DNA from: Actinomycetes bacterium
GTDB lineage: Bacteria; Actinomycetota; Acidimicrobiia; Acidimicrobiales; RAAP-2
Reading direction: 5' to 3'
Assembly (NCBI GenBank): GCA_021782915.1
Contig: JAJXUK010000012.1
Span: 1 to 48,906 of the forward strand
DNA length: 48,906 nucleotides
Shown here: piece after piece, positions 773 through 46,841 of the stretch
How the letters are laid out: the number at the start of each line of letters is the position of its first letter
Position numbering within the stretch: position 1 is the first letter of the stretch
Translations under genes and position numbers: made by a program
The notes under the pieces: model-generated
Told to the model about the DNA's origin: nothing
The model's database searches: none
What the model saw: only the letters and a program-made list of their open reading frames with translations

Positions 773-856
773 TCTCTCAGGCCCGTCTCACACACCGGGC
801 ACACTGTACCGAAGGCCCTGACCACACTGAGCCGAGAATTCAAGGGAAGATTGAGT

Positions 857-881
857 GACTCTTAGCATCCTGTTAAGAGTC
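857..881. promoter_or_regulatory. Inverted repeat upstream of SGNH hydrolase gene
   Basis: GACTCTTA (857-864) is mirrored by TAAGAGTC (874-881) around a 9-nt spacer, about 43 nt upstream of the SGNH hydrolase start. An operator or a 5' leader hairpin are both possible. No matching regulator is identifiable. Confidence 0.3.
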
Positions 882-923
882 GTCCGCTACTCTCGAAGCC
901 CGACCCCCCAGTCAAGGACAGTG

Positions 924-1808
924 ATGCGCCGAACTTCCCGATACCTCTGGAGCGCTGGAGTCGTCGCCGCGGCGCTCGCGCTGAGCAGCGCCCTGGCCGG
1001 CGCCGCCGGCGCGGCCACGTCGGGCGCGCCCGTCTCAGCTTTCTACCTGGTCATCGGGGCCTCCGACTCACTCGGGGTCCAGCCCCAGTCCCAAGCCCTC
1101 GGTGGGGCGCGCACGCACGCCGGCTACGCCAACGATGTCGTGCTGGCCGAGGCCGCACGCGGGGTCAACCTGGACATGACCCAGGTGGGCTGCCCAGGCG
1201 AGACGACGTACACGGCGATCAACGGCGGAGACCGCTGCTACAGCGGAACCACGACTCAGCTGTCGCTGGCCCTGGACTTCCTGCACGCGCACTACAGCGA
1301 CACGGGTCTGGTGACGATCGACCTCGGCTTTAACAACCTGCTGCCCTGCCTGCGCGGTGGCGCACTGGATCCGACCTGCGTGGACGCGGCGCTGCCCCAA
1401 CTGCGCCTGGACATGACGACCATCCTCACGGCCCTCAAGGCGGCTGCCGGTCCCCACGTGACCATCGTGGGACTCACGCACTTCAATCCCTACCTCGCCT
1501 CGGCCCTGGCGGGCAGCACCGGCAAGGTGATCGCCTCAGACTCGGTCGAGCCGCTCGCCAACCTGAACAAGGAGCTGGCCGACGTCTATGGCTCCTTCGG
1601 CGTCGCGGTGGCCAACGAGGTCGCCGCGTTCCAGTTGGACGCCACGACGCACCACCACACGGCCCAGTTCGGCCTGGCGACTCACATCTGCTCGCTCACC
1701 TACATGTGTCGGACGTCGCACGCGCCCAACTTCCACCCCGACAGCCACGGCTACCACCTGATCGCCGAGGCCATCATTGACGCCCTCGGCCCCCACTGGC
1801 CCAGTTGA
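924..1808 (+). CDS. Secreted SGNH/GDSL-type hydrolase
   Basis: A 294-residue secreted hydrolase of the SGNH (GDSL) esterase/lipase fold. ATG at 924 is chosen because AAGGA (914-918) sits 5 nt before it; an upstream start at 855 would run through that site. The N-terminus has a basic start, an Ala/Leu-rich core and A-G-A type cleavage region near residues 25-32. Block I is GASDSLG (nucleophile S47), then GCPGETT at 89-95, GFNN at about 135-138 (GxN block), and HPDSHGYH at the C-terminus. Several cysteines suggest disulfides outside the cell. Substrate is unknown: extracellular lipid, acylated glycan or small ester. A paralogue lies inverted at 6855-7814, sharing the GAR-T-x-x-GYANDV and GCPGETTY blocks. 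Confidence 0.8.
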   Translation: MRRTSRYLWSAGVVAAALALSSALAGAAGAATSGAPVSAFYLVIGASDSLGVQPQSQALGGARTHAGYANDVVLAEAARGVNLDMTQVGCPGETTYTAINGGDRCYSGTTTQLSLALDFLHAHYSDTGLVTIDLGFNNLLPCLRGGALDPTCVDAALPQLRLDMTTILTALKAAAGPHVTIVGLTHFNPYLASALAGSTGKVIASDSVEPLANLNKELADVYGSFGVAVANEVAAFQLDATTHHHTAQFGLATHICSLTYMCRTSHAPNFHPDSHGYHLIAEAIIDALGPHWPS

Positions 1809-1830: not shown

Positions 1831-2400
1831 GTGGTGCGCGTGACGACTCTCTCCCTCGTGCGCCACGGTGAGAGCACGTGGAACGTGGCGGCTCTCCTGC
1901 AGGGCCACAACGACGAGGCGCGCCTGACGGACCTGGGACGCGACCAGGTGCGCGCGACCGCCACGTCGCTTCGCGACGCCGGCGCGGTGGGCATCGTCTC
2001 GAGCGACCTGGCCCGCACGCGCGAGAGCGCCGAGGTCATCGCCGAGGTCCTGGGGCTGCCGGTCTCTCTTGACGCCGGGCTGCGCGAGAGGAACCTGGGC
2101 GTCTTCGAGGGCCGCCCGGCCAGCGAACTGGACCCCCTTCTCATCGGCGTGCGCGACGGGGTCATCGTCGACACCGAGGCTGCCACGCCCGGCGGCGAGA
2201 CCGTGACCGCCTTCGCCCGACGTGCCCAAGCGGCCGTCGAGCGCATCGCGAACGCGTACCCGGATCAGCACGTCATCGTGGTCACTCACGGCGGTGTCTT
2301 CCGCGTCCTGAGGGCCCTGGAGTCCGGCAGTCTGCTCGGCGCGGCGTGGTTCGCGGTGGCCAACGCCGCCCTCTACGAGCTGCGAGTCCCTGCTCCCTAG
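1831..2400 (+). CDS. Histidine phosphatase family protein (PGM-like)
   Basis: A 189-residue member of the histidine phosphatase / phosphoglycerate mutase superfamily. The phosphoacceptor motif is LVRHGES (H12), with R62 in SDLARTR, E87 in LRERNLG and the second catalytic histidine H153 in VVTHGG. The length fits cofactor-independent broad phosphatases such as CobC/GpmB-like proteins. The start is a GTG. It is convergent with, and overlaps by 4 nt, the acyltransferase gene that ends the ComA-type operon. A role removing phosphate from a product of that operon is conceivable but rests only on adjacency. It could equally be a general phosphatase. Confidence 0.85.
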   Translation: MVRVTTLSLVRHGESTWNVAALLQGHNDEARLTDLGRDQVRATATSLRDAGAVGIVSSDLARTRESAEVIAEVLGLPVSLDAGLRERNLGVFEGRPASELDPLLIGVRDGVIVDTEAATPGGETVTAFARRAQAAVERIANAYPDQHVIVVTHGGVFRVLRALESGSLLGAAWFAVANAALYELRVPAP

Positions 2401-3614
2401 TCGGCCGCGACCTCCAGGGGCCCGTCCCCACGATCCGGGTGCCAGTGCGCCGTGCGCACGCGGTGTGGCCGCAACGTGGCCCAGCTGACCCGCGAGCGAC
2501 CCACGACGGCCTTGGACACCGGCGTGCGCGCGAGGATCGTGCTCAGGAGCAGACCCATCGAGTAGACGATCACCAGCGCCAGTGGCGCGCGCAGCTCCCA
2601 GGGCCAGTTCAGGTGCAGCGCCCCGAAGACCCGGCCGAGTATCGGGATCCAGATCATCTGAGACAGGTACACCCCGTAGGAGTTGTCGGAGCCGGACTGC
2701 ACGAGTGAGCGCGTCAGCGGCCCCCGTCGCGGCGCGACCAGGAAGACGCCGAGCAGGTAGACGCACAGGATGGCCCCGATGTTGTAGGGCAGTATGAAGG
2801 GCGCGAACACGTTCGAGCCCGTCCACAGCAGCGACGGCAGTCCCACGTGTCGACCCAGAACGAGGAGGCCCTCGCCGAGGGCCACGCCTCCCAACGTGGC
2901 CGCGACGAGCCCTCGCGCGTGGCGCACGATCCAGTCGTGCACGTCGTCCAGGTGCAGGGCGACGATGACTCCACCGACGAGGTAGACGGGATAGGAGATG
3001 ATCAGACGCGTCTGGACCATCCCCGGCACGTGCAGGCCCAGCGGGTGCGCGACCAGCGCCCAGCCGTAGAGGACCTGCCAGATGACCGAGGCCCACATGA
3101 TCTTCACGTGCCAGCGCGCCGCACGGCGAAGGGCGAAGAGCAGGAGCGGAAAGATCGCGTAGAACTCGAGAATGACGAGCAGGTAGTACAGGTGGAAGTA
3201 GCCCGTTGCCAACAGGTGCCAGAAGTAGTGCGCACCGTGCAGTGAGAGCACCGCGTGTGCGCTCAGGGAGTAGTACGGGAAGCCCGAGGTCGGCGTGGCC
3301 GAGGTGAAGAGGAAGTAGAGCACCGTCCACACGACGTAGGGCAGGCCCACCGAGATGAGGCGTCGCTTCGCGTAGATCCCGTAGTCGATGCGCGCGCTCT
3401 CGCGATAGCTGTAGGCCAGCATGCTGGCCGAGACGAAGAGAAAGGCGTCGCGGCTAAAGCGCGTCAGCATGATCACGCCGGTGGCCAGGGTGCTGGTCGC
3501 GAGCGGGGCGAAGAAGATGAGGGCGTGGGTCGAGATGACCGCGGCCTGCTTGATGGGCCGCATCGCGTCGATGTGATCGAGTCGCTTGCGCGTGCCCTGG
3601 GGCGGCGTGCTCAC
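2397..3614 (-). CDS. Acyltransferase 3 family membrane protein
   Basis: A 405-residue polytopic membrane protein of the acyltransferase-3 (OafA/WecH/IcaC-like) family. The N-terminus carries the family signature region RLDHIDAMRP followed by a helix with H30, the position of the conserved histidine. About ten hydrophobic helices follow. Known members transfer acetyl or other acyl groups onto sugars, peptidoglycan or small molecules at the inner membrane. It is the last gene of the comA-like / VOC / AMP ligase operon, overlapping the ligase stop by 4 nt (3611-3614), so it is probably translated by coupling. The context suggests it uses or receives an acyl group activated by the upstream ligase. 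The acceptor is unknown. Confidence 0.8.
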   Translation of the reverse strand: MSTPPQGTRKRLDHIDAMRPIKQAAVISTHALIFFAPLATSTLATGVIMLTRFSRDAFLFVSASMLAYSYRESARIDYGIYAKRRLISVGLPYVVWTVLYFLFTSATPTSGFPYYSLSAHAVLSLHGAHYFWHLLATGYFHLYYLLVILEFYAIFPLLLFALRRAARWHVKIMWASVIWQVLYGWALVAHPLGLHVPGMVQTRLIISYPVYLVGGVIVALHLDDVHDWIVRHARGLVAATLGGVALGEGLLVLGRHVGLPSLLWTGSNVFAPFILPYNIGAILCVYLLGVFLVAPRRGPLTRSLVQSGSDNSYGVYLSQMIWIPILGRVFGALHLNWPWELRAPLALVIVYSMGLLLSTILARTPVSKAVVGRSRVSWATLRPHRVRTAHWHPDRGDGPLEVAAD

Positions 3615-5089
3615 CGCAGGCGCTCCACGTGTAGGACTCTCACGGCGTCGAGCTCGCGTGTGCGCAGCTTGCCCGTGGCGTGGCGGGGCAACTGGCCCAC
3701 CACACGGATCTCCGCCGGACGACGCACGCGGGCCAGCTCGGCGATCAGACTCGCGCGCAACTCAGTCAGCACCCCACCTCGATCGACGTCACCCAGCTCC
3801 ACGTAGAGAACCGGCACCTGGCCGAAGACGTCATCGGCGACGCCCACGACCGCCGCTCCCAGCACGCCGGGCAGCTCCAGGGCGATCTCCTCGATCTCGC
3901 GCGGGTAGATCTTCTCTCCTCCCCGGTTGATGACGTCGTCGCTGCGTCCGACTAGGTAGAGATTCCCCCGAGCGTCAAGGTAGCCGAGGTCCCCCGTGAC
4001 CAGCCAGCCACCTTCGCCAAATCGCGCCTCGTAGCCCGGTGACTCGTAGTGATCGATGACCGATCGCCCACGGATCTCGACGGACCCGACCTCACCGCTT
4101 TCGCCACGCCCGCCAGTGTTCACCCGCACCTCCACACCCACACCCGGGCCCACCGAGCCGGCCGGACGCTCAGCGTCCAGAGACGTCGCACAGATCTGAC
4201 TGGCGGCCTCGGTCATGCCGTAGGACTCGATGACGCGTACACCGGTTCGCGCCTCGAAGCGCGCCAGCAGACTCGCCGACAGGGGCGCCGAGGCCGAGCG
4301 CACGAATCGCAGGCTCGCCGGCACCTCATCGTCATCGCCCAGCTCGACCAGCCGAGCGATGATGGCCGGCACCGCGTTGATCCACGTCACCTCGCGCTCG
4401 GCTGCTCGCGCCCAGAAGCCCGTTCGACGGAAGCGCTCCTCGAGCACCAGCGACGCCCCGGCGCTCAGGCTGGCGAGCACCGCCACGACTTCGGCGTTGA
4501 CGTGCCACAGCGGCAGGGGGTTCAGCCCGCGATCACGCGGTCCCAGGCGGTGGTGCTGGGCGATCTGGCGCGCGGCGGCGAGGAGTCGGGCCTCGTCGAG
4601 GGCCATCACCTTTGGCACCCCCGTCGTGCCGGAGGAGGCCAGGATCACGCCACCGGACCCGGTGACCCGCTCGCCGCGACTCCACGGACCTGAGAGTTCG
4701 TGCCAGGGCAGAGTCACCCCGGCGGGAGCGGGCCGATCGGCCAGGACACGCTGGAGCCGGAGGGTGCTGAGAAGACGCGCCCGGGCCCCCGGGGTCGGTG
4801 CGCTGTTCGTCGGATCGAGGGGCGCGACCCAGAAGCCAGCGGCCAGCAGCCCGAGGAAGCTCTGCACGAAAGCCAGCGGATCCGAGACCATCAGGCCCAC
4901 GCGCTCGCCCGGGGACCAGCCCGCGCAGCGCTCGGCCCACACGCTCACGGCCTCCTGCAAGTCGGCGAAGCGCACGTGGTCCGCTCCCGGCGCACCCAAC
5001 AAGAAGGTCTCCCCGGCGCGCGTGGTGGCGTGCCAGGCAATCACCTCACGCAGGGTCGTCTCGGCCGGGGCCGATGCCGTAGACGTCAT
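3611..5089 (-). CDS. AMP-forming acyl-CoA synthetase / acyl-AMP ligase
   Basis: A 492-residue ANL-superfamily adenylate-forming enzyme that activates a carboxylic acid with ATP, usually then transferring it to CoA. Motifs in order: the P-loop ASSGTTGVPK at 151-160, YGMTEAASQ at about residue 285, TGDLGYLD and GRSDDVINRGGEKIYP in the hinge and A8 region, and the C-terminal catalytic lysine in ATGKLR. The length is typical of medium-size acid:CoA ligases. No carrier-protein domain is fused. It follows the VOC gene by 4 nt and overlaps the acyltransferase gene by 4 nt. The substrate cannot be read from the sequence; the ComA-family neighbour raises the possibility of a small sulfonated or hydroxy acid, which is inference. 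Confidence 0.88.
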   Translation of the reverse strand: MTSTASAPAETTLREVIAWHATTRAGETFLLGAPGADHVRFADLQEAVSVWAERCAGWSPGERVGLMVSDPLAFVQSFLGLLAAGFWVAPLDPTNSAPTPGARARLLSTLRLQRVLADRPAPAGVTLPWHELSGPWSRGERVTGSGGVILASSGTTGVPKVMALDEARLLAAARQIAQHHRLGPRDRGLNPLPLWHVNAEVVAVLASLSAGASLVLEERFRRTGFWARAAEREVTWINAVPAIIARLVELGDDDEVPASLRFVRSASAPLSASLLARFEARTGVRVIESYGMTEAASQICATSLDAERPAGSVGPGVGVEVRVNTGGRGESGEVGSVEIRGRSVIDHYESPGYEARFGEGGWLVTGDLGYLDARGNLYLVGRSDDVINRGGEKIYPREIEEIALELPGVLGAAVVGVADDVFGQVPVLYVELGDVDRGGVLTELRASLIAELARVRRPAEIRVVGQLPRHATGKLRTRELDAVRVLHVERLR

Positions 5090-5093
5090 CGAC

Positions 5094-5504
5094 TCAGTAC
5101 ATCATCCGATGATCGGCGTAGTGCTTGAACTCCAGCAGGTTGAGCGCCGGGTCGTGCACGACGAACGCCGAGTGCACCTCGACCAGGCCCTGAAAGCGTT
5201 CGCACACCTCGGCGAAGAACGGCACGTTGCGCTGGTGGCACAGAGAGTACAGGGCCTCGAAGTCGACCCGCTCACGAAAGGTCACACCGAAGTGTCGCGG
5301 ATACATCGCGACGTCCTGGATCGCCAGACGCTCTGGACGCGGCGAGAGGTGACAGACCAGCTGGTCCCCGAAGAAGTCGAAGGTCACCCGATCCTCGTAG
5401 CGTCGCGCCAGCCCACAGCCGAGCTGGGTGACGTAGAAGTCGACGGTCTCGTCCAGGTCGTACGCCGGCACGGCCAGATGGAAGACGTCGCGCGACTCTC
5501 TCAT
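5094..5504 (-). CDS. VOC-family (glyoxalase/dioxygenase fold) protein
   Basis: A 136-residue single-domain vicinal-oxygen-chelate protein. The metal ligands expected for the fold are present: H9 in FHLAVP, H71 in RHFGV and E125 in LEFKHY, so it is probably a metal-dependent enzyme rather than a binding protein. Family reactions include dioxygenation, isomerisation, epimerisation and glutathione or bacillithiol addition. The start codon overlaps the stop of the comA-like gene (5501-5504, ATGA), showing a translationally coupled operon. Its role with the ComA-like enzyme and the AMP ligase is unknown, and the specific reaction cannot be named. Confidence 0.82.
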   Translation of the reverse strand: MRESRDVFHLAVPAYDLDETVDFYVTQLGCGLARRYEDRVTFDFFGDQLVCHLSPRPERLAIQDVAMYPRHFGVTFRERVDFEALYSLCHQRNVPFFAEVCERFQGLVEVHSAFVVHDPALNLLEFKHYADHRMMY

Positions 5505-6289
5505 CGCTCGGATTCAGCCGGGTGGGCGGTCTCGAAGGCGAAGAGCGTGTCGCTGCGCAGGCCCAGTCGCAGCGTCTCGACGTTGACGACGTCGGACATG
5601 GCCACGTTTGCCAGGTTGACCCCGGCACCCACCCGACGCACGAAGTAGCCCTGCAGGTCCATCGTCGGGGCCTCGAAGATCAAGCGCTCCTCGGGCACCG
5701 GGCCGTCCAGGATCTCCTCGACCAGCCCGTAGCGCAGCTCGCCGCTGGGCCGGCAGATGCCACCCTTGCCGCTCTCTCGCGTCTCCAGCGTCACCAAGTG
5801 CGCACCCGCCGCCAGGTCGGCCTGGATCGAACTGATCCACGTGAGCGGGGACATCGTCTCGCTCTTGACGTTGTCCTTCGAGCCCACCTCGGAGATCACC
5901 TTGAAGTCTCGACTGAGCTCAGCCACGTAGCGCGCCTTGTCGGCGTCGGACAGCTCGATGGTGCCGTTGGAGACCTCGACGTACTCGCAGGAGAACTCCT
6001 CGGCCAGGTTCTTGAAGTCGTCCAGTCGCCCCTGCAGCAGGAACTTCTCAAAGAGCGTTCCGCCGAAGTAGTAGCCGACCTGCTCGCGACGCAGCGCGTC
6101 GGTCTTGACTTTGAGATCGTGGGTGACCAGCGCGGTGCCCCAGCCGAACTTGACGAAGTCAATGAAGCCTCCGTGGCTCTCGATCACGTCGACGAAGTAC
6201 GCGGTCGGCAATCCGCCGTCAATCGCCATCGTGAGTCCGGCCTGACGTGGCTTGCTCGTACGCTCGGGCAGTTCCAGCGCGATGCTCAC
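5501..6289 (-). CDS. comA: Phosphosulfolactate synthase (ComA) family protein
   Basis: A 262-residue TIM-barrel protein clearly related to ComA, the enzyme that adds sulfite to phosphoenolpyruvate to make phosphosulfolactate in coenzyme M and sulfolactate synthesis. The family blocks are all present: DGGLP, IDFVKFGWGT (43-52), GGTLFE (76-81), EVGSK (134-138), RESGKGG (171-177), IFEAP (204-208), VNLANV (224-229) and ETLRLGLRSDT (238-248). The start is GTG at 6289 with a perfect AAGGAGG Shine-Dalgarno (6302-6296). It heads a four-gene operon. No ComB phosphatase or ComC dehydrogenase is next to it, and the family also contains proteins of unclear activity (for example plant HSA32), so the exact reaction is not proven. 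Confidence 0.88.
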   Translation of the reverse strand: MSIALELPERTSKPRQAGLTMAIDGGLPTAYFVDVIESHGGFIDFVKFGWGTALVTHDLKVKTDALRREQVGYYFGGTLFEKFLLQGRLDDFKNLAEEFSCEYVEVSNGTIELSDADKARYVAELSRDFKVISEVGSKDNVKSETMSPLTWISSIQADLAAGAHLVTLETRESGKGGICRPSGELRYGLVEEILDGPVPEERLIFEAPTMDLQGYFVRRVGAGVNLANVAMSDVVNVETLRLGLRSDTLFAFETAHPAESER

Positions 6290-6854: not shown

Positions 6855-7814
6855 CTAGAACCACCCGCTCGCCGCGGCGACGATCGTGTTGGCGATCGCG
6901 CGGTAGCCGTCGTTGTTCGGGTGGTCGTCGGGCCCAAAGGGCGCCGGCGTGCACATCCAGGTCCACGAGCAGGCGTAGAGAACGTTCACCGGCACTCGTG
7001 TGGCTCCCCACGTCGTGAGGGTCGTGTCGTCGATCCGGTACGCCCCGGGCACGTTGGCCACCGCCACGTCGGCTGCCCGATAGATCGCCGTCAGCTCGGT
7101 GTCGAGCTGAATGATCACCCGACGCGTCGCCTCGGCATCAGCGAGACTCGAGCGCGGGTTCACCACGTCCGAGAGGAACGGATCGGCGTACAGCAGGCCC
7201 ACGAAGTGCACGCGGGGCCCGGCCGCCGACTTGAGCAGGGAGATCACCCCGGGCAGGTTGGCCCGCACCTGGGCCAGGCCCGCGCTGGTGCACGCCAGGT
7301 CCGGCGGCTGCTTCCACAGGCAGGCGCGCACGTCGTTAAAGCCCAGGTCGATGCTGACCAGGCCGACCTCGTCGTGGTGCGAGGCCAGGAAGATCGTCGC
7401 CGCGCGGCGCTGGGAGCCATCGCCCAGGTAGCAGTGATCTCCCGTGTGCAGCATGGAGTAGGTCGTCTCGCCGGGACAGCCCACCTGGCGCAGGCTCAGG
7501 TTGACGCCGCGGCGGGCCAGCATCGCCACGACGTCATTGGCGTAGCCGGTCTGGGTCCGTGCACCGTTGTGGTGCACGACCCCCGTGGGCTGAAAGCCCA
7601 GCGACGCCGAGGCACCGACGTCCAAGTAGAAGCCCGCGGACGCCGCGTTGGCCCCCGAGGCGGCCGGCGCGCCCCACTGAGCGGCGTCCGCCGCGCCGAG
7701 CAGGCCCACCAGGCCCAGGCTGATCACCCAGAAGGCCGCGTCACGCAGGCGTCGAACGCCGGTGGGCCCGTGACGGGTGCGCCCCTCTAGCTGTTCAGCC
7801 CCTGACGTGGACAC
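6855..7814 (-). CDS. Secreted SGNH/GDSL-type hydrolase (paralogue)
   Basis: A 319-residue secreted SGNH-fold hydrolase. An N-terminal stretch with basic residues is followed by a hydrophobic helix (FWVISLGLVGLLG, about 28-40) and a small-residue linker. Block I is GASASLG (nucleophile S69), then GART-x-x-GYANDV, GCPGETTY, DLGFND and a C-terminal DDHPNNDGYR containing the catalytic histidine. It has six or more cysteines. The shared blocks with the protein at 924-1808 show recent or retained paralogy, and the two genes lie in opposite orientation on either side of the ComA-type operon. The GTG start at 7814 has a weak upstream purine run. Substrate unknown. Confidence 0.8.
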   Translation of the reverse strand: MSTSGAEQLEGRTRHGPTGVRRLRDAAFWVISLGLVGLLGAADAAQWGAPAASGANAASAGFYLDVGASASLGFQPTGVVHHNGARTQTGYANDVVAMLARRGVNLSLRQVGCPGETTYSMLHTGDHCYLGDGSQRRAATIFLASHHDEVGLVSIDLGFNDVRACLWKQPPDLACTSAGLAQVRANLPGVISLLKSAAGPRVHFVGLLYADPFLSDVVNPRSSLADAEATRRVIIQLDTELTAIYRAADVAVANVPGAYRIDDTTLTTWGATRVPVNVLYACSWTWMCTPAPFGPDDHPNNDGYRAIANTIVAAASGWF

Positions 7815-21356: not shown

Positions 21357-22064
21357 CTACACGGCCTCGCCCAGGTACACCGCGCGAACGCGCGGGTCCA
21401 CGAGAAGTTTGTCAGCAGTGTCGGTGAAGACAATGCGACCATTCTCCATTACGTAGCCACGGTCGGCCAGGCGTAGTGCTTGCGCTGCGTTCTGCTCCAC
21501 GAGGAACACCGTGGTGCCGGCATCACGAATCTCCCCGATGATGCGGAAGATGGCCTCAACGATCATCGGTGCCAGACCCATCGAGGGCTCATCGAGCAGC
21601 AGCAATCGTGGATGACTCATCAGCGCACGAGCGATGGCCAGCATCTGCTGCTCACCACCAGACAAGTTGCCGCCCAGCTGCTTACGCCGCTCCTTCAGAA
21701 TCGGGAATGTCTCATACATTCGGTCGATGTCCTCAGAGATTGATCCCCGTCGACGAAACGCACCCATTTCTAGGTTCTCCTCTACCGACATCTGAGGAAA
21801 GATTCGACGTCCCTCCGGCACGTGACTTATGCCCAGTGACGTGAACTGATGCGCCTTCGTCCGCGTCACGTCTCGACCATCGAACGTGATCGTGCCCGCC
21901 ACAGGGGCGTGCAAACCCGAGAGCATCCGCAGCGTCGTCGTCTTGCCCGCTCCGTTCGCGCCGAGCAACGTAACGATCTCACCCGCGCTCACCTCGAAGC
22001 TGACTCCGTGCAGGGCCTCAATTGCGCCGTAGCGCACGACGGCGTTTGACACCTCCAACATCAT
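21357..22064 (-). CDS. livF: ABC transporter ATP-binding protein, branched-chain amino acid type
   Basis: A 235-residue ATPase of the LivF group. Walker A is GANGAGKT (35-42), the signature NLSGGEQQ, Walker B LLLLDEPSMGLAP and the H-loop region VFLVEQN (LivF-type Q-N after E). It energises import of branched-chain amino acids or related amides. It overlaps livG by 4 nt and is the last gene of the livJHMGF operon. Confidence 0.93.
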   Translation of the reverse strand: MMLEVSNAVVRYGAIEALHGVSFEVSAGEIVTLLGANGAGKTTTLRMLSGLHAPVAGTITFDGRDVTRTKAHQFTSLGISHVPEGRRIFPQMSVEENLEMGAFRRRGSISEDIDRMYETFPILKERRKQLGGNLSGGEQQMLAIARALMSHPRLLLLDEPSMGLAPMIVEAIFRIIGEIRDAGTTVFLVEQNAAQALRLADRGYVMENGRIVFTDTADKLLVDPRVRAVYLGEAV

Positions 22065-22864
22065 GAGTCTCCCGCCGTGCTGGCCGCGCCGAGATAAGCC
22101 TCAATGACCGCCTCGTTCGCCCGAATCTCCTCCGGCGTACCCTCGGCGATCACGCTGCCGAAGTTGAGCACGTACAGGCGCTCCGCCAGAGCCATCACGA
22201 GCTTCATGTCGTGCTCGATGAGCAGGATCGATACGCCACGTTCGTCGCGCACCTTGCGGATGAGCTCGGTCAACTCAAGCTTCTCTGAGGGGTTCGTGCC
22301 AGCAGCCGGCTCATCCAACAGGAGCACTTGAGGTCGAGTTGCCAGAGCCCGCGCGATCTCCAGGCGTCGCCGGTCACCATAGGACAGTGACGACGCCAAG
22401 AGATTCGCCTTGCTGCGCAGGCCCACGAAGTCCAGCAAGTCGACGGCGAGCTCGTCCGACTCACGTTCACCGTGCCGAGTTCGCGGACCGCGCACCATGG
22501 CCCCGGCGATCCCGATGCCACGATGAGACTCCGCGCCGATCTTCACATTCTCGAACGTCGTCAACGCCCCGAAGATTCGAGATGCCTGGAAAGTCCGCGC
22601 GACGCCCAGCGAGCTGACCCTGTGAGCCTTCATTCCAATCACGGACACGGACCGACCACTCTTTGCTGACAGCGTGATGCGGCCCTCTTGGGGCTGATAG
22701 ACGCCGGTCAGGGAGTTGAACAAGGAGGTCTTACCCGCGCCATTCGGGCCGATGACAGCCAGAATCTCCCCTCGACGCATCTCGAGCGAGACGTTGTTAA
22801 GAGAGACCACGCCACCGAAGCGAAGAGTTATGTTCTCGACGTTGAAGATGAGTTCGTCGATCAT
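22061..22864 (-). CDS. livG: ABC transporter ATP-binding protein, branched-chain amino acid type
   Basis: A 267-residue ATPase of the LivG group. Walker A is GPNGAGKT (39-46); the signature reads SLSYGDRRRLEIA, the LivG-type variant of LSGGQ; Walker B is LLLDEPAAGTNPSE and the H-loop LLIEHDMKLV. It pairs with LivF on the LivH/LivM membrane dimer. Both ends overlap neighbours by 4 nt. Confidence 0.93.
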   Translation of the reverse strand: MIDELIFNVENITLRFGGVVSLNNVSLEMRRGEILAVIGPNGAGKTSLFNSLTGVYQPQEGRITLSAKSGRSVSVIGMKAHRVSSLGVARTFQASRIFGALTTFENVKIGAESHRGIGIAGAMVRGPRTRHGERESDELAVDLLDFVGLRSKANLLASSLSYGDRRRLEIARALATRPQVLLLDEPAAGTNPSEKLELTELIRKVRDERGVSILLIEHDMKLVMALAERLYVLNFGSVIAEGTPEEIRANEAVIEAYLGAASTAGDS

Positions 22865-24207
22865 GGGACGTCTCCCGTCAACACCTCATCCATGTGCCCC
22901 TGGCCCGACTCAGCCAGACCAATCTCGCGCTGACGTCGCTTCGACGGAACCAGCCCCGACGGACGAAAGATCATCATGATGATGAGTAGTGCCCCAAGGT
23001 AGATGTAGAGATCCTGGGGCTGATAGCCGGCCGGCGGCGTGTGGATGAGATACATCGAGACGGTCTGGATGACGACCGCACCCACCACGGCACCCGCGAT
23101 GGACCCCATTCCGCCGAAGATCACGAGAACCAGAATGTTGATCGAGAAGTAGATGGTGAACACCGAAGGATTGACGAAGTTTGTCTGTGCCGCCGTCACC
23201 ACTCCCGCGAAGCCGGCGCTCGCCGCACCGATGGAGAATGCCATGACCTTGTACTTCAACGGATTGATGCCCAGCGACTCGGCCGCCACTTCATCTTCAC
23301 GGATCGCCGTCCACGATCGGCCCACCCGTGAGTGCTCCAGGAGCGAGAACGCCACGACGAAGAGAATCACGAAGGCAAGGGTGAGGTAGTAGTAGGGCAC
23401 CGGGGCAAGCCCCCACACATACTTGAGGGGCCCTACGTCGACCGAGAAATGAGGAACCTGACCCGAACCGGCAGAACCTCCCGTGATGCCATTGAGATTG
23501 TCCACGAAGAGGAAGATGATCTCTCCGAAGCCGAGCGTGACGATGGCCAGGTAGTCACCACGCAAGCGCAGGGTTGGAGTGCCGAGGAGGACTCCCGCCA
23601 GCATTGCGAGGAAGATGGCGATGGGAATCGCGAAGAACGGGTTCAGATGCACGCCGAACAGTGGCGGCAACGGCAGAGCCCCCGTGACCCACGCAGTCGC
23701 GTACGCGCCCACCGCGTAGAACGCCACGAATCCGAGGTCCAGCAGCCCAGCGAATCCGACGACGACGTTCAGACCAAGTGCCAAGAGTACGTACACCGCG
23801 ATCTGCTCGACCATTGCCGTCTGCCAGAAGGGATCCGTGACAAATCGAGGCAGGAGCGCTCCAATCACCACGAGCGCCGCTGCAACGCCCCATCGCACCG
23901 AGCCCTTGTTCGCGACGGCCCGTGGTCTTTCTGTCAGCGACCGCACACCATCCCGGAGACGATCACCGTACGAGCGCCACAGCGAGATAAGGAAGTAAAT
24001 GATGACGGTGAAAGCGAGAAACTGCACGATTCGCGGAACAGGGAACAACCCAAAGAACGAGACCTTCTCACCAAAGGAGCCGCTGAAGCCCGCGGTCGGC
24101 GTCTCGTTGCTTCCCGGAGGTCCGGTCACTAGTTCGACGACGGCCATCGCGAGCGCTAGAGAGAAGAAGCGCCCCAGGGCCTTGTGCTTCAGCCACCGAG
24201 GCATCAC
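22861..24207 (-). CDS. livM: ABC transporter permease, branched-chain amino acid type
   Basis: A 448-residue inner-membrane permease of the LivM group. The core, from about residue 125, has the family pattern YVLLALGLNVVVGFAGLLDLG and the cytoplasmic coupling region RSWTAIREDEVAAESLGIN. The N-terminal ~110 residues add two further hydrophobic segments and a basic loop, longer than the ~320-residue minimal LivM but seen in some homologues. The C-terminus is a charged tail. Overlaps livH and livG by 4 nt each. Confidence 0.92.
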   Translation of the reverse strand: MMPRWLKHKALGRFFSLALAMAVVELVTGPPGSNETPTAGFSGSFGEKVSFFGLFPVPRIVQFLAFTVIIYFLISLWRSYGDRLRDGVRSLTERPRAVANKGSVRWGVAAALVVIGALLPRFVTDPFWQTAMVEQIAVYVLLALGLNVVVGFAGLLDLGFVAFYAVGAYATAWVTGALPLPPLFGVHLNPFFAIPIAIFLAMLAGVLLGTPTLRLRGDYLAIVTLGFGEIIFLFVDNLNGITGGSAGSGQVPHFSVDVGPLKYVWGLAPVPYYYLTLAFVILFVVAFSLLEHSRVGRSWTAIREDEVAAESLGINPLKYKVMAFSIGAASAGFAGVVTAAQTNFVNPSVFTIYFSINILVLVIFGGMGSIAGAVVGAVVIQTVSMYLIHTPPAGYQPQDLYIYLGALLIIMMIFRPSGLVPSKRRQREIGLAESGQGHMDEVLTGDVP

Positions 24208-25157
24208 GCGGCCCTCCCCAGTCGCTCACCCAGAATCCCTGTGGGCCGAAAGAGCAGTACCGCAACGAGAACGCTGAAGGCAACCACATCGATGTAGGCG
24301 CCCGATACGAAGGCCACGGAGAGACTCTCGACAACGCCGAGCAGGAGCCCCCCCAACACCGCACCGCGGATGTTGCCAATGCCACCCAACACCGCCGCCG
24401 TGAAGGCCTTGAGAGCAGGAGTGAATCCCATCGTGTAGATGACACCGCTCTGGATTCCGTAGAGGAACGCGGCCGCACCGCCCAGCGCCCCGCCGATGAG
24501 GAACGTAAGCACGATCGTGCGATCGATGTTCACGCCCATGAGAGACGCGGTCTCAGCATCCTGGGCAACGGCACGAATCCCGCGACCAAGACGCGACTTC
24601 GCGACAACTCGGTCCAGGAGGACCAGCATGGCCGCGCCGGCTCCCGCCACGACGAGGTAGTACAGCTGTACGGAAGCCCCGAAGATGCTGAAGACGGGCC
24701 TATTGATGAAGAGGATCGGGAGCGTGTAGTAGTTGCGACCGAACTCCTTGCCAGCGAGATTGAAGAGAAAGTACGAGGCACCGATCGCGCTGATGAGGTA
24801 GGCGAGGGCGGGAGCCCGCCTCCTGCGCAGGGGACGATACGCAACGCGCTCAACGAGAACCGCGACGAGCCCTCCTGCAACAGCCCCCGCCAGCACCCCG
24901 AGACCAACGAGGAGAACCGACTCGAATCCAGACGGCTGCGAATTGCCGACCACGGCCCGCAGCAGGAACAGGCTGGCGAAGCCGCCTGACATGAAGATCT
25001 CCGAGTGTGCGAAGTTGATCAGCCGCAAGACGCCGTAGACCAGGGTGTAGCCAATGGCGACCATCGAATAGATGAAGCCAGACGCGAGTCCCCCAACCAA
25101 CAGGGGCCAGAACTCCAGCCGAAGCGTCGCGAAGTGGCTTGTGAAGTAGTGAATCAT
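24204..25157 (-). CDS. livH: ABC transporter permease, branched-chain amino acid type
   Basis: A 317-residue permease of the LivH group with about eight helices. Family hallmarks are GYTLVYGVLRLINFAHSEIFM near residue 35 and the coupling loop GIRAVAQDAETASLMGVN. It forms the translocation channel with LivM. A perfect 19-bp hairpin lies in the 105-nt gap between livJ and this gene, suggesting lower expression of the membrane components than of the binding protein. Confidence 0.93.
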   Translation of the reverse strand: MIHYFTSHFATLRLEFWPLLVGGLASGFIYSMVAIGYTLVYGVLRLINFAHSEIFMSGGFASLFLLRAVVGNSQPSGFESVLLVGLGVLAGAVAGGLVAVLVERVAYRPLRRRRAPALAYLISAIGASYFLFNLAGKEFGRNYYTLPILFINRPVFSIFGASVQLYYLVVAGAGAAMLVLLDRVVAKSRLGRGIRAVAQDAETASLMGVNIDRTIVLTFLIGGALGGAAAFLYGIQSGVIYTMGFTPALKAFTAAVLGGIGNIRGAVLGGLLLGVVESLSVAFVSGAYIDVVAFSVLVAVLLFRPTGILGERLGRAA

Positions 25158-25205
25158 CGAGGTGCTTCCCGTAAAGTCCGCTAGTACCGCACGACAGTAG
25201 ACGGA

Positions 25206-25247
25206 AAATGGTGATGCCGGGAGCAGTAGCTCCCGGCATCACCATTT
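25206..25247 (-). terminator. Perfect 19-bp hairpin between livJ and livH
   Basis: The arm at 25206-25224 is exactly complementary to 25229-25247 with a 4-nt loop (AGTA). Read on the minus strand the stem starts AAATGGTGATGCC and ends in ATTT followed by TCC, so a very short U run is present. In the operon it would act as a partial terminator or an mRNA-stabilising 3' end for livJ. Confidence 0.75.
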
Positions 25248-25262
25248 ACGAGACTCTAACGA

Positions 25263-26468
25263 TCAACTGTGACCGATGGAGTTGATCACACCATTCTGAA
25301 CCTGCGAGAAGTCCACAATGGTCTTGGCATTCAGGTCGCCGTTGGACTGGAACGACAGCGTCCCCGTCACACCCTTGAACGTCAGCTTGTGCAGCGCGGT
25401 GATGAGACCCGGTCGCAGCGACTTGACCGTCGACTTGCTTCTGAAGATCTTCTTCAGCGCTGCGATGATCATGTTCGTCGCGTCGTAGGACTGAGCAGCG
25501 TACGTAGCGTTCGCCGCCGGGAAGTGGGCCAAGGCCTTGTAGGCCGACGCCAGCTTCCCAGTCAGGGTCGCACTGCCGCCACCGGCGACACTGAGGTACA
25601 CGTTGTTCGCAGCGGCAGCGGGCGACGTGCCCTGAACCAAAGCGGGTGAGAGTGAACCATCGCCGGACATGATGACACCCTTGTACCCAGCGCTGTAGAG
25701 TGCGCCCAGGAACAGTCCGAAGTCACAGTAGTAACCGCCGTAGAACAGCCCGGTAGCTCCGCTGGCAACGATCTGGGTCGCGGCGGCGGTGTACTCGCTC
25801 ACCGAGGCCGTGCCGCCACAGGAGCCCGTCTCCGGGTACGTGTTCGAGGTAACAGTCGCACCGAGGGTCTTGGCCTCCGACGCGACCACCGCGGCCAGGC
25901 CCGCTCCGTAGAAGGAGCCATCGTCAACCACGTAGAGGCTCTTGACGCTCTTCGTCTTGACGAGGAACTTCGCGTCAGCGGCACCCTGGACGTCATCGCC
26001 CGCGACAACTCGCATGAAGTTGTTGTTCTTCTTGCCAGTTGCCAGTGCAGCAGCGGTCGCTGATGGGCTCACCGTCGCGATGTGCGCCGCCGAGTAGTAG
26101 GGCTCCGCGGCGCGCGTGGCTCCCGAGAACGCTGGGCCAACAACGGCAACCAATGACTTGTTGTGAATCGCCGATTGAGCCTGTGCCGGAGACAGTGTCG
26201 GGCTCCCCTGGTCGTCATAGGTAGCCATGCGCAGGTTGAACGGAAGCTTGTGCGTGGCGTTCGCATTGTTGATCGCCAACTGGACGGCGAACACCATGTT
26301 CAACCCAAGCTGCGCATTGGACCCAGTCAACGGGCCCTCATACCCAATGGTGAAGGTCGGCTTACCGGCCGCCCCCGACGACGACGCTAGACCAACCGCC
26401 GGCACCGTCAGGGCCAGCATGGCCCCCGACGCGGCAATCGCCACCGTCCTGTTCAAACGAAGCTTCAC
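25263..26468 (-). CDS. livJ: Branched-chain amino acid type ABC transporter substrate-binding protein
   Basis: A 401-residue extracellular binding protein of the LivJ/Leu-Ile-Val family (periplasmic-binding-protein fold type I). Typical elements are IGYEGPLTGSNAQLG after the signal sequence, VAVVGPAFSGATRAAEP, and the ligand-binding LYVVDDGSFYGAGLA segment. Signal peptide: residues 1-28, ending PAVGLASSSG. No lipobox cysteine follows, so it is not an obvious lipoprotein. GTG at 26468 has an AGGAGG Shine-Dalgarno. It probably binds a branched-chain amino acid or amide; the exact ligand is not readable. Confidence 0.9.
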   Translation of the reverse strand: MKLRLNRTVAIAASGAMLALTVPAVGLASSSGAAGKPTFTIGYEGPLTGSNAQLGLNMVFAVQLAINNANATHKLPFNLRMATYDDQGSPTLSPAQAQSAIHNKSLVAVVGPAFSGATRAAEPYYSAAHIATVSPSATAAALATGKKNNNFMRVVAGDDVQGAADAKFLVKTKSVKSLYVVDDGSFYGAGLAAVVASEAKTLGATVTSNTYPETGSCGGTASVSEYTAAATQIVASGATGLFYGGYYCDFGLFLGALYSAGYKGVIMSGDGSLSPALVQGTSPAAAANNVYLSVAGGGSATLTGKLASAYKALAHFPAANATYAAQSYDATNMIIAALKKIFRSKSTVKSLRPGLITALHKLTFKGVTGTLSFQSNGDLNAKTIVDFSQVQNGVINSIGHS

Positions 26469-43440: not shown

Positions 43441-44205
43441 TCAGAGAAACGAGCCCAGTCCGACGCTGAGGCCCGCCTCGGAACCCATGGCGCGCAGCGC
43501 CACCAACACCCCGGGCACGAAGCTCGCCCGATCGTAGGAGTCGTGGCGGATCGTCAAGCCCTCGCCCGGTCCGCCCAGGAGGATCTCCTCGTGCGCGACG
43601 AGTCCCGGCAGTCGCACCGCGTGCACGCGCACCCCTTCGACGTCCGCGCCGCGCGAGCCGGCAACGCTGTGGCGCTGGGTGACGTCAGCCGGCAGCGCGC
43701 GACCCGCCGCCGCACGAGCTGCCGCCACGGCGCGTGCGGTCGCCAGCGCCGTGCCCGAGGGCGCGTCCACCTTGCGGTCGTGGTGCAGCTCGATGATCTC
43801 CACGCGCTCGAAGTACGGCGCGGCCATCGCCGCGAAGCGCTCGGCCAGTGCCGCGCCCAGGGCGAAGTTGGCGCTGACCACGACGCGCGTGCGCCGCGCG
43901 GCCCGCTCGAGCTCGTCACGCTCGGCCTCGCCCATGCCGGTCGCGCCCACCAGGAGGCCCACGCCGTGCGCAGCACACCAGCGCGCGGAGTCGACCACGC
44001 CCTCGGGTGAGGAGAAGTCCACCACGACGTCCACGCTCGCCGGATCCAGCTCGCTCAGGCTCGTCGCGATGATCGCCCCGAAGTCCCGGGCCGGAGTGTG
44101 GGCGTCGACCAGGGCGACCACGGAGTGCTCGGGATCGGCGCCCAGGCCCTCGGCCATCACCTGGCCCATCCGACCGGCCCCACCGACGATCGCGAGACGT
44201 CTCAC
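43441..44205 (-). CDS. dapB: 4-hydroxy-tetrahydrodipicolinate reductase
   Basis: A 254-residue NAD(P)H-dependent reductase. The Rossmann motif is GGAGRMGQ (8-15); the substrate-binding ELHHDRKVDAPSGTA block is the DapB signature. It overlaps the stop of the YfhO-like gene by 4 nt (44202-44205) and precedes dapA. Confidence 0.96.
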   Translation of the reverse strand: MRRLAIVGGAGRMGQVMAEGLGADPEHSVVALVDAHTPARDFGAIIATSLSELDPASVDVVVDFSSPEGVVDSARWCAAHGVGLLVGATGMGEAERDELERAARRTRVVVSANFALGAALAERFAAMAAPYFERVEIIELHHDRKVDAPSGTALATARAVAAARAAAGRALPADVTQRHSVAGSRGADVEGVRVHAVRLPGLVAHEEILLGGPGEGLTIRHDSYDRASFVPGVLVALRAMGSEAGLSVGLGSFL

Positions 44206-46841
44206 GCCTCGACCCTAGGGCGTCGCGAGCGCCACAGCAGCCCGAGCGCACCGAGGAAGCCCACGCCACCCACGCCCGTGCCCAGCAGGCCGAGCTCGAT
44301 GTGCGGGGCGTGGTAGTGAAAGTGCACGATCCACGCGCCCGGCGGCAGGTTCACGGACTGAATGAGCCCGTTGCGATGTACGGTCAGCGCGATCACCCGC
44401 GAGGTGCCGAGCTCGCTGGCCGTGGCCCGCCAGCCCGGGATCCACTCCATCGAGTGCAGGAGGGTCGTGGCGCGCCGTGCGTTGACGCGCACCCAGGTGT
44501 CACCCCAGACCGCGTTGCGCACGCTGAGCACGCGCCCGGTCGAGAGCGAGGCCACCCAGGCGCTGGGCAGCTGGGACGTGGCGTGAAAGTACGCCAGGTT
44601 CGCATTCGTCTCGCTGAGGTGCCAGTACGAAGTGGCGACGGCCTGCTGGAACGTGGTGCTCGCCTGGTAGGCGCGCCCGTGCGTGGTGCGCAGAATCGTC
44701 GAGCCCGCCCGCAGCGCGCTGGTCGAGCTCAGCGTGAAGCCCGCCGCCTCTTGTCCCGCGGTGTGGAAGGTGACGCTCGTGCCCGACGGAGCCGTGCGCG
44801 GCGGGCCCACCGGCTGGCCGTGGGCGCCGAGCAGCTGAAGGCTCAGCGCCGAGGCGCTGAGGGCCGCGCCGTCGTAGCCGCTCACGCTCACGGCCGACAG
44901 CGCCTCAAGGCGCCCGAAGTAGCGGTACAGCGTGTACGTCCAGCGCGGCGTCTCGCAGAAGCGCGGGCCCACGCTGGCCGGGTTGAGCAGCTGACCGCTG
45001 GCGACCACCAGCGAGGCCAGACGCAGGGTGCGGAACTGGCCGCGCACGAGGTTGCACGCGTTGAGCGAGAAGAGCGGGTGCGTGCCGGTCTCGGTGCCGT
45101 AGTAGGCGTCGATCAGGGATCCGTAGCCCTGGATCGAGGGCAGTTGGGTGAAGACGTTCGTGTTGGGCAGACCCAGGCGGATGAACTGGTCCCCGGCCGC
45201 CCCCGTGGGATCCACGAGCGCGAAGCGCCCGGTCAGGCCCAGGTGCGCGACCGCGTACGTGCGCGACGGGCTCACCGGCACGTTGCCCGGGCTCAGTCCC
45301 GTGGAACAGAAGGCGAAGAAGAGAATCGCGTCAGCGGCGATGACGCTCAGCAGAGCGCGGACCTGGTTGCGCCGCACGTAGAGCAGCCACAGGCCCACCA
45401 GGGCGATCGCGAGATGGACCACCAGCGTGGGGCGCTCGTAGCTGGCCCAGCGCGACGCGCGTGCCGAGACTCCGAGCCAGCGCACGAGCGCGGGGCCCGC
45501 GAGGAGTGCGCTCACGCTCAGCAGCGCCGTCACCAGCGCCGGTGCGCCCGTGACCAGGCGCCGCCAGCCCACCAGCGAGGCGCCGTCACGATCGCGCTCG
45601 ATCAGCCGATCGAGCCACCAGGCGAGCAGCACGCTGGCCGCCAAGTCCACCAGGATCACGTTGCGGCTCTGCAGGCGCGTGGAGTGAAAGAGCGGGATGA
45701 GCGCGAAGACGTGCCCCACCGGCGTGTAGTTGCCCCAGGTCGCCCACACGCCCACGAAGCCCATCACGCCGTAGAGGCTGAACTCGCGCACGGCCCAGCG
45801 CCGCACGCGCCCGACCAGTTGAGCCGCGTAGGCGCACGCTGCCATCAGGGCCACCACGCCGGCGTAGCCGGTGACCTCCGGCAGGTTGTACGTGGCGAAG
45901 TAGTGCGGCTGATGCAGGATGCCGTTGCCACCGAAGAGGTCGGGCACGAACCACAGGGCCGACCAGCGCACCGCGAGCGAGCCGGAGCCGAAGAAGGCGT
46001 AGGACAGGTTCGTGCGCTGGGAGACGGCGATGTAGCTCCAGCCGGTGATGATCTGCGCGAAGCCGATCAGCACTCCCCAGCCCAGTCCGATCAGGACCGC
46101 GAGAACGTAGCGCGCACGCTGGGCCCACGAGCTGGGCCGCCAGCGCCCCGGCGCGAGCAGCACGACCGCGCCCACCAGCATGCCCACCAGCTCCATCTCG
46201 CCGATCGCGCGCGGCTCACCGCTCAGCCACGTCAGCGCCCACAAGGCGGAGAGGCCCATCACGGGTGGCACCAGGCGGACCCATCGCGCGTGCGTTCGCA
46301 CCCGCTCGGCCAGCACCAGCATGACGAGCACGGCCCACGGCAGCAGGGCGAAGCCCTGAACGACCCCGAGGTGCACGAGCTGTCCGGTCATGGCCCCGAC
46401 GTAGGCGTAGACGAGCGAGCCGGTGAGCGCTGCGCTCGGGCGCAGGCCGTGATAGCGCGCCAGGGCGTACACGCCGATGCCCGCCGCGGCGTACACCGCG
46501 ACGAGGTTGATCACCCAGGCGAGGATCCCGGGCACGAGCGCGAAGAGGAACGTCAGAGGAAAGAACGAGCCGGCGTTCATCCCGCCGAGCAGGGGTGTGC
46601 CCGAGTCGGCGAGCGGATTGATCAGCGGCAGGTGCGCACTGGCCAGCTGGCGACCCGTGAGCACCCGGAGCGGGTAGTTCTGGATCAGGTTGTCCGCGGC
46701 CACCGCCGGATGCCCGAAGGCCGCCGGCACTCCGAAGAGGAGCGCCGGCAGCGCGAGCAGGACGAGGAGGGCGTAGCGGTCAGCTCGTCCGAGCGGGCGC
46801 CACCAGGGCGTCGGCGTGGAGAGCGTGAAGGCTACGCTCAC
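44202..46841 (-). CDS. Large YfhO-like membrane protein
   Basis: An 879-residue membrane protein with about 12-13 N-terminal helices, then a long extracytoplasmic part (roughly residues 500-840), and a final helix before a basic C-terminus (LLGTGVGGVGFLGALGLLWRSRR). This resembles the YfhO / GT-C-fold glycosyltransferase-like group. An acidic residue cluster after the first helix, the usual GT-C catalytic site, is not clear: AADNLIQNYPL at ~48-58 is the candidate. It may act on cell-wall polymers. It sits between pnp and dapB and is translationally coupled to dapB, which is not the usual gene order. Confidence 0.75.
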   Translation of the reverse strand: MSVAFTLSTPTPWWRPLGRADRYALLVLLALPALLFGVPAAFGHPAVAADNLIQNYPLRVLTGRQLASAHLPLINPLADSGTPLLGGMNAGSFFPLTFLFALVPGILAWVINLVAVYAAAGIGVYALARYHGLRPSAALTGSLVYAYVGAMTGQLVHLGVVQGFALLPWAVLVMLVLAERVRTHARWVRLVPPVMGLSALWALTWLSGEPRAIGEMELVGMLVGAVVLLAPGRWRPSSWAQRARYVLAVLIGLGWGVLIGFAQIITGWSYIAVSQRTNLSYAFFGSGSLAVRWSALWFVPDLFGGNGILHQPHYFATYNLPEVTGYAGVVALMAACAYAAQLVGRVRRWAVREFSLYGVMGFVGVWATWGNYTPVGHVFALIPLFHSTRLQSRNVILVDLAASVLLAWWLDRLIERDRDGASLVGWRRLVTGAPALVTALLSVSALLAGPALVRWLGVSARASRWASYERPTLVVHLAIALVGLWLLYVRRNQVRALLSVIAADAILFFAFCSTGLSPGNVPVSPSRTYAVAHLGLTGRFALVDPTGAAGDQFIRLGLPNTNVFTQLPSIQGYGSLIDAYYGTETGTHPLFSLNACNLVRGQFRTLRLASLVVASGQLLNPASVGPRFCETPRWTYTLYRYFGRLEALSAVSVSGYDGAALSASALSLQLLGAHGQPVGPPRTAPSGTSVTFHTAGQEAAGFTLSSTSALRAGSTILRTTHGRAYQASTTFQQAVATSYWHLSETNANLAYFHATSQLPSAWVASLSTGRVLSVRNAVWGDTWVRVNARRATTLLHSMEWIPGWRATASELGTSRVIALTVHRNGLIQSVNLPPGAWIVHFHYHAPHIELGLLGTGVGGVGFLGALGLLWRSRRPRVEA

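Follow-up and report, generated by a model that had tools for sequence, protein, structure and literature searches.

The yitCD genes of Bacillus subtilis are inferred to act in phosphosulfolactate synthesis, and sulfolactate is present in the spores of this bacterium, as stated in the part of the source available to us (PMC517825). A second group of described systems is built on acyltransferase-3 (AT3) membrane proteins, which transfer acyl groups from acyl-coenzyme A (acyl-CoA) to sugars outside the cytoplasm and have SGNH domains as their partners (accessible sections of PMC9558356 and PMC9833829); charged succinyl groups are among their substrates (same sections of PMC9558356). Here we describe a locus that joins genes of both kinds. 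It lies on contig JAJXUK010000012.1 of the Actinomycetes bacterium assembly GCA_021782915.1, whose 48,906 nucleotides are referred to below as the window, and is built around a four-gene operon encoding a ComA-like protein, a VOC-fold protein, an AMP-forming acyl-CoA ligase and an AT3 protein. The operon is real, conserved and modular, and co-function of its genes is near certain. On balance, and with limited confidence, we favor the view that it makes sulfolactate, converts this to the CoA ester and places it, as an acyl group, on an acceptor outside the cytoplasm. The features of the locus are:

comA, 5501..6289, minus strand, 262 amino acids (PF02679 over its full length, profile positions 1-243 of 243, 258.5 bits, cut-off 25.2); predicted first enzyme, using phosphoenolpyruvate (PEP) and sulfite
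VOC-fold gene, 5094..5504, minus strand, 136 amino acids (Glyoxalase PF00903, 30.4 bits, cut-off 20.6); probable metal enzyme and ComA partner
AMP-forming acyl-CoA ligase, 3611..5089, minus strand, 492 amino acids (AMP-binding PF00501, 140.6 bits, cut-off 29.9; AMP-binding_C PF13193, 50.9 bits, cut-off 24.5); predicted small-acid activation
AT3 membrane acyltransferase, 2397..3614, minus strand, 405 amino acids (Acyl_transf_3 PF01757, 91.3 bits, cut-off 31); predicted transmembrane acyl transfer
Histidine phosphatase (HisP), 1831..2400, plus strand (His_Phos_1 PF00300, 144.6 bits, cut-off 21.7); predicted phosphosulfolactate phosphatase
SGNH/GDSL-like gene with a signal-like N-terminus, 855..1808, plus strand (PF13472, 26.3 bits); possible AT3 partner
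Second SGNH/GDSL-like gene, upstream of comA, 6855..7814, minus strand (PF13472, 30.2 bits)

A conserved and modular operon

The four operon genes are joined by two overlaps of 4 nucleotides (5501-5504 and 3611-3614) and one gap of 4 nucleotides (5090-5093), and HisP (1831-2400, plus strand) converges on them with a 4-nucleotide overlap with the end of the AT3 gene. The junctions of the operon and the convergence had been reported in a preliminary description of the window and were confirmed from the open reading frame (ORF) coordinates. Each flank of the operon also carries an SGNH-like gene, which that description had not counted with it. Third-position GC content was 0.84-0.91 in all five genes (the four operon genes and HisP), like that of the coding sequence of their own genome. 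This genome, assembled into 84 contigs totalling 2.1 Mb, has a single ComA.

Conservation was assessed in 100 genomes, the window's own included, 34 of which had ComA. Once the window's own locus and a fragment in genome G042 were left out, 34 ComA loci from 32 genomes could be compared. VOC and ligase genes were present in 30 of these loci and all four genes in 29, the linkage in relatives that had been set as a check on the operon. In one locus (L047) the contig ends inside the ligase. In six of the 29 complete loci a contig end truncates the AT3 gene, and two of the 29 have one gene split into two pieces (AT3 in L035, ComA in L065). Gene order was identical in 28 of the 29, the exception being L061 (ligase-AT3-comA-VOC). 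The arrangement is not due to chance, because it is kept in relatives. ComA was found without VOC in L043, L052, L056 and L063, and an SGNH gene stands upstream of comA, in the same place and on the same strand as in the window, in the close relatives L062 and L064. The two pieces of ComA in L065 (genome G014) result from a stop or a frameshift, the operon being complete in all else, and could reflect either decay or a sequencing error.

The phyletic profile of the same 100 genomes agrees with joint action. ComA and the ligase (presence threshold E ≤ 1e-60) occurred together in 32 genomes and were both absent from 64; the ligase, present in 34 genomes, was found without ComA in two (G036 and G052), and ComA without the ligase in two others (G002 and G042). 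A VOC orthologue was found in 32 genomes, each of which also had ComA. For the 61 genomes of the genus the counts were 30 with both, two and two with one alone and 27 with neither. Fisher p values were 2e-21 (100 genomes) and 9.5e-13 (61 genomes), both too small since shared ancestry is ignored. Weak VOC paralogues (36-64 bits; G016, G066, G076, G077, G085, G086 and G099) were excluded from these counts; the ComA and VOC of G042, both short fragments, were included.

A scan of a species-genome collection with the VOC alignment gave 286 relatives; analysis was confined to the 80 top-ranking loci. The closest records in this collection are labelled Acidimicrobiaceae or Actinomycetes. By title and similarity, 39 of the 80 loci were assigned to a genus group, leaving 41 outside it; the partner queries were partly taken from the loci counted, and some hits are self-matches. 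In 75 of the 80, VOC and ComA were at most 7 kb apart. The 39 genus-group loci had ComA in 39, ligase in 37, AT3 in 34, HisP in 32 and SGNH in 14 cases, and the 41 outside loci, within the same distance, ComA in 36, ligase in 21, AT3 in 19, HisP in 10, SGNH in 8, HAD in 3 and ComB in 2. Hits were concentrated close to VOC: within 5 kb versus 5-10 kb there were 58 vs 2 for the ligase, 62 vs 1 for AT3, 42 vs 2 for HisP and 27 vs 3 for SGNH.

The module thus recurs, with its order shuffled, in other Actinomycetota and in Alicyclobacillaceae. The order is HisP-ComA-VOC-ligase-AT3 in Trebonia (L120), ligase-AT3-ComA-VOC in Nocardia (L128) and Actinomycetospora (L117), and AT3-ligase-ComA-VOC-HisP in L121; in Alicyclobacillus fastidiosus (L125) ligase and AT3 are on the opposite strand, ahead of SGNH-ComA-VOC. 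Gene order, though identical in 28 of the 29 complete loci above, is not fixed. Conservation, the shuffling of gene order and the phyletic profile together give strong support to the joint action of the four genes put forward in the preliminary description. The occurrence of comA in Alicyclobacillus genomes has been noted, without this module, in the available part of an earlier paper (PMC10562698).

ComA and its phosphatase partners

The best solved relative of the window ComA is 1u83, which we take to be B. subtilis YitD. Two further references were 1qwg, presumably the ComA of Methanocaldococcus jannaschii, and a Xanthobacter protein that we take to be the characterized XcbB1. Family-conserved columns were defined as those in which 1qwg and the Xanthobacter protein have the same residue and in which conservation reaches at least 85% across 54 ComA rows (53 different, as L176 duplicates L138), gaps in two rows being passed over. 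The active-site comparison called for earlier was made as one of conservation only: the window protein matches 47 of the 48 family-conserved columns, but of all 98 columns in which the residues of 1qwg and the Xanthobacter protein agree, it differs in 41. Nineteen columns are invariant in all 54 rows, a set that includes the window protein by construction and was not used as a test.

The ComA tree contains a VOC-linked clade (support 98/82) of 43 rows, comprising all 38 VOC-linked ComA rows (one of them a duplicate) and five without VOC. The window ComA belongs to it and 1u83 is nested in it. Outside it lie 1qwg, the Xanthobacter protein and second ComA copies of Alicyclobacillus. These second copies (L170-L173 and L177) are distant and adjoin none of the families searched for. 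Two PAPS-reductase-family matches in the window's own genome are a possible source of sulfite.

The preliminary description had noted that ComB is missing and that the convergent HisP could supply the phosphatase step. Indeed, ComB (PF04029) gave no match in the window's genome (G000) nor in 33 others of the 37 genomes of the genus searched; one genome, G015, has the operon plus ComB on another contig. Among 23 genomes from outside, seven had a ComB match, in five of these away from ComA-VOC. The role suggested for HisP has gained support. HisP stays beside ComA in L052, L056, L100 and L101, four loci with no adjacent ligase or AT3, and the window HisP is its own genome's best match to the HisP of the Trebonia operon (138.2 bits, next 44.5). 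Elsewhere its place is taken by other families: a true ComB directly precedes ComA-VOC in Ferroacidibacillus (L127) and in a Bacillota metagenome-assembled genome (MAG; L144), and a HAD domain does so in two Humibacter (L131 and L142). That three unrelated phosphatases stand beside one ComA clade in different lineages points to phosphosulfolactate as the intermediate. The structure 1vr0 is presumably a ComB crystal. It is tabulated with (2R)-3-sulfolactic acid in the accessible part of PMC2954221. Weak HisP hits (42-49 bits) were also seen right after more distant ComA genes at L303:7605-8387 and L293:2-1087, the latter running off its contig.

The VOC protein, the ligase and the transfer genes

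Both profile and fold place the VOC protein in the VOC superfamily. Residues H9, H52, H71 and E125 are invariant in all 31 rows of an alignment chosen for diversity from 81 sequences; by analogy with related enzymes we take them to be metal ligands or catalytic groups. The AlphaFold model (predicted local distance difference test score, pLDDT, 93.5) is nearest to 3rri of Alicyclobacillus acidocaldarius (Z 22.2, root mean square deviation 1.6, 132 residues aligned), followed by FosA, FosB and FosX (Z 12.3-14.2). An assignment of the reaction from these matches was rejected, because other VOC proteins score equally high (up to 13.2). Since the Fos proteins act on a small phosphonate, a small sulfonate is a plausible substrate for the VOC protein.

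The ligase has both AMP-binding domains of the AMP-forming acyl-CoA ligases and a lysine, K474, that is presumably the C-terminal catalytic one; K474 and R264 are invariant in 14 of 14 sequences. Its closest solved sequences are oxalate-CoA ligases, with which it has in common an RSxSA stretch that holds R264, and R264 is found in 97% of operon-type ligases and is rare in paralogues. At the level of sequence, this likeness hints at a small acidic substrate and nothing more. In NCBIfam the ligase matched 109 families, and the best 25 of the 109 all scored far below cut-off; FadD7 and long-chain fatty-acid ligase models are at the top among the matches listed.

The A. fastidiosus ligase was searched against 18 genomes, and wherever one of these has an operon ligase, that ligase scored best. 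In the window's own genome it scored 238.7 bits and the next ligase 140.1; in Trebonia a second ligase (L204) ties with the operon ligase (308.6 vs 309.3 bits). A profile search of 15 further genomes gave 545-643 bits for a ligase in nine of 11 ComA-VOC genomes, other ligases reaching at most 395; in the same search an operon-type ligase was absent from G002 and from three genomes with VOC and no ComA. In the ligase tree 38 of 39 operon-type rows form one clade (support 100/98) apart from 21 paralogues, with the Streptomyces row as a long branch outside.

In several genomes whose ComA-VOC stands apart, the same query found elsewhere a ligase with a score well clear of the next, namely in Alicyclobacillus tengchongensis, A. 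mali, A. acidiphilus and A. cellulosilyticus, in Ferroacidibacillus and in two Bacillota MAGs; in Humibacter the split-off ligase leads less clearly (243 vs 202 bits). Such operon-type ligases mostly keep their transfer genes: of 14 not beside ComA-VOC, 11 had AT3 and nine had SGNH within 3 kb, compared with none of 21 paralogous ligases for either gene. The 14 include L204 (neither AT3 nor SGNH) and L207 and L208 (genomes without ComA), and two of them, L198 and L199, begin at a contig edge. The 21 controls came from 20 stretches of six hand-picked genomes, and AT3 and SGNH were sought with our own queries instead of Pfam. Neighbors of the Alicyclobacillus ligase-AT3-SGNH cluster (Nramp, fumarase, a pyridoxal phosphate (PLP) decarboxylase, a peptidyl-prolyl isomerase, GGDEF/HD and cellulase genes) revealed no acceptor.

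The AT3 protein contains the R-X10-H motif (R19-H30) that characterizes this family in the first transmembrane helix (available part of PMC9833829). RXXR patterns occur at 52, 164, 231 and 382, and the sequence near the expected place in the third helix reads KRRLIS. A pattern search for R-X10-H over 65 AT3 ORFs matched 60 with spurious upstream matches and was not used. SGNH genes recur beside ligase-AT3. Both SGNH-like proteins of the window score below the PF13472 cut-off of 32.9; GASxS, GFN and HP blocks are present (GASDS, GFN and HP in the 855-1808 protein), with no DxxH before HP. In L074, L085 and L086 an aldehyde dehydrogenase gene is placed between SGNH and ComA; in other loci, without adjacent ComA-VOC, such a gene precedes the ligase. 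Its substrate could not be taken from models: the matches are generic, BADH/StyD-like and, among the 25 models listed for each, all below cut-off. The genes concerned are:

Aldehyde dehydrogenase genes (BADH/StyD-like), L201:5508-7058, L208:4542-6041, L074:7413-8936, L085:2142-3671 and L086:6161-7699

Elsewhere in the window, positions 21357-26468 hold a branched-chain-amino-acid-type ABC transporter cluster (two ATPases, two permeases and a binding protein). An 879-residue ORF at 44202-46841 has a strong coding signal, matches no Pfam family at E 1e-6 and adjoins a polyribonucleotide nucleotidyltransferase-like gene at 46848-48884.

Proposed pathway, alternatives and related systems

In the proposed pathway ComA would add sulfite to PEP to give 2-phospho-3-sulfolactate, as its family and clade suggest. 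The convergent HisP would then remove the phosphate in place of ComB, as suggested by the three families of phosphatase that accompany this ComA clade. The C3 sulfonate may be the substrate of the VOC protein, either ahead of activation or in the course of it, and a C2 epimerase or isomerase is one possibility; this is the least certain step. The AMP-forming ligase would form sulfolactyl-CoA, and AT3, perhaps with an SGNH protein, would take the acyl group across the membrane onto a glycan, wall polymer or lipid head. The mechanism of this last step is known for AT3/SGNH systems, while substrate and acceptor are predicted. The earlier suggestion that a small acid is activated and attached fits the ligase-AT3-SGNH association; that the acid is sulfolactate we hold to be only somewhat better than an even chance.

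Several observations weigh against this pathway. The window ComA falls short of the cut-off of the archaeal ComA equivalog model TIGR03849 (205.8 vs 280 bits). No HisP, HAD or ComB hit was found within 7 kb in 21 of the 36 ComA-VOC loci outside the genus group. Genome G002 has ComA and HisP and no VOC or ligase, and the profile search found no operon-type ligase in Streptomyces physcomitrii and YS1.bin19, two of the 11 ComA-VOC genomes. Three MAGs titled Neisseriales, Neisseriaceae and Proteobacteria carry a ComA-type VOC gene, 57-61% identical (L139:10001-10402, L145:10001-10402 and L124:9268-9669), and have no ComA, ComB or operon-type ligase in the genome. The transfer genes can likewise stand alone. 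G036 has SGNH-ligase-AT3-SGNH and G052 SGNH-aldehyde dehydrogenase-ligase-AT3-SGNH, both without ComA, and in G027, which has no VOC, ComA-HisP and SGNH-aldehyde dehydrogenase-ligase-AT3-SGNH are at two different places. From these arrangements, the transfer part may accept other acids, or the aldehyde dehydrogenase may provide a second route to the same acid.

A sample of Actinomycetota points the same way. It comprised 396 genomes, 38 of them with ComA; after four genomes of the window's own genus and two with fragmented matches (G176 and G195) were left out, it gave 35 loci from 32 genomes. The module was carried by just two (L304, on the same contig as L143, and L306), and a rule by which ComA would signify this operon was rejected. 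A weak ComB hit was seen in four of the 35 loci and a weak HisP hit after ComA in two, and two loci had no ComA above 35 bits with the query used. Nine further actinobacterial ComA genes (L287-L292, L294, L296 and L299; 192-215 bits to the window protein) have no partner families nearby with the queries used.

The separate occurrence of the two parts favors a division of labor: sulfolactate would be made by ComA, VOC and phosphatase and left free as a solute, as it is in Bacillus spores, and the acid attached by ligase, AT3 and SGNH would be another small one. Besides the cases already given (ligase-AT3-SGNH of G036 and G052 without ComA, the ligase of G027 and G052 preceded by an aldehyde dehydrogenase gene, and ComA-HisP of G002 without ligase), the two linked parts are found at different places in several Alicyclobacillus species, in Ferroacidibacillus and in Humibacter. 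We nevertheless consider two acids unlikely, because one shared intermediate fits better both the co-occurrence of ComA and ligase in 32 of 100 genomes, with two and two exceptions, and the repeated joining of the parts in different orders and different phyla. It is less probable again that the nucleophile which this ComA homologue joins to PEP is not sulfite, and that the product is then no sulfonate. The window protein is not the archaeal equivalog by NCBIfam, and its clade is distinct from that of 1qwg and the Xanthobacter protein, with 41 of their 98 common columns different; however, 47 of 48 family-conserved columns agree, two ComA-VOC loci of this clade have a true ComB alongside, and 1u83 is nested there.

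Participation in coenzyme M synthesis, of which ComA is the first enzyme, was rejected as highly improbable. In plasmid operons of Xanthobacter (L187) and Mycolicibacterium (L186), which we take to be bacterial coenzyme M operons, ComA is followed by lyase-type and PLP-enzyme genes that are missing from the window operon, and ComB was not found in its genome; ComC and ComDE were not searched for. Sulfolactate might instead be the acceptor, the ligase activating a fatty or other acid and AT3 acylating the sulfolactate hydroxyl to give a sulfonolipid. The FadD7 and long-chain fatty-acid models that head the ligase's NCBIfam list, far below cut-off as they all are, would agree with this, but the closest solved ligases are oxalate-CoA ligases with the RSxSA stretch that includes R264, and the AT3 acceptors known from the consulted sections are extracytoplasmic sugars with SGNH partners, SGNH genes recurring here also. 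We judge a sulfonolipid improbable, marginally more so than a ComA acting without sulfite.

Sulfolactate attached as an acyl group therefore remains our preferred reading. Beyond it, we suggest tentatively, as something a little short of an even chance, that the operon represents a widespread undescribed surface modification, with sulfolactyl esters exported by AT3/SGNH onto an envelope polymer and the VOC protein a new sulfonate enzyme. Among the open-licence papers listed, neither the operon nor sulfolactyl esters are described, and the term sulfolactyl has no occurrence. If the proposal is correct, such esters would give Actinomycetota and the acid-loving Alicyclobacillaceae a strong-acid negative charge that is not titrated at low pH, and would provide a route for building organosulfonates into the envelope in Alicyclobacillus, Trebonia, Actinomycetospora, Humibacter and Frankia, and soils and acid waters would receive sulfolactate from a further source. 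A function could then be given to the so far unassigned VOC family to which the solved structure 3rri belongs, and histidine phosphatase and HAD proteins would be alternatives to ComB. The role of ComA homologues in bacteria without a visible coenzyme M pathway becomes testable.

Compared with known systems, the operon is like several in part. Oxalate-CoA ligases, which are not among the rows of the ligase tree, are the best solved sequence relatives of its ligase and have the RSxSA stretch. The Fos proteins (FosA, FosB and FosX) have the folds closest to the VOC protein after 3rri, but are 10-22% identical to it, and the VOC gene here adjoins biosynthesis genes. Archaeal and bacterial coenzyme M synthesis also starts from a ComA-family enzyme, but the window operon is without the genes that follow ComA in the two plasmid operons, and its ComA clade differs from that of 1qwg and the Xanthobacter protein. 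The B. subtilis ComB-ComA pair yitCD would share the ComA clade of the window protein if 1u83 is YitD, as we assume, and it too has a phosphatase partner. The available part of its description adds spore sulfolactate, but the operon named there is yitCD alone (PMC517825). AT3/SGNH acylation systems (OafA, OafB and OatA, and the succinyltransferases ExoH and OpgC) resemble the locus in the R-X10-H motif, in SGNH nearby and, in the sections consulted, in the precedent of charged acyl groups. The operon described here differs from them in having a ligase and acid-synthesis genes, in its separate SGNH genes and in the sulfonated acyl group that it is predicted to transfer.

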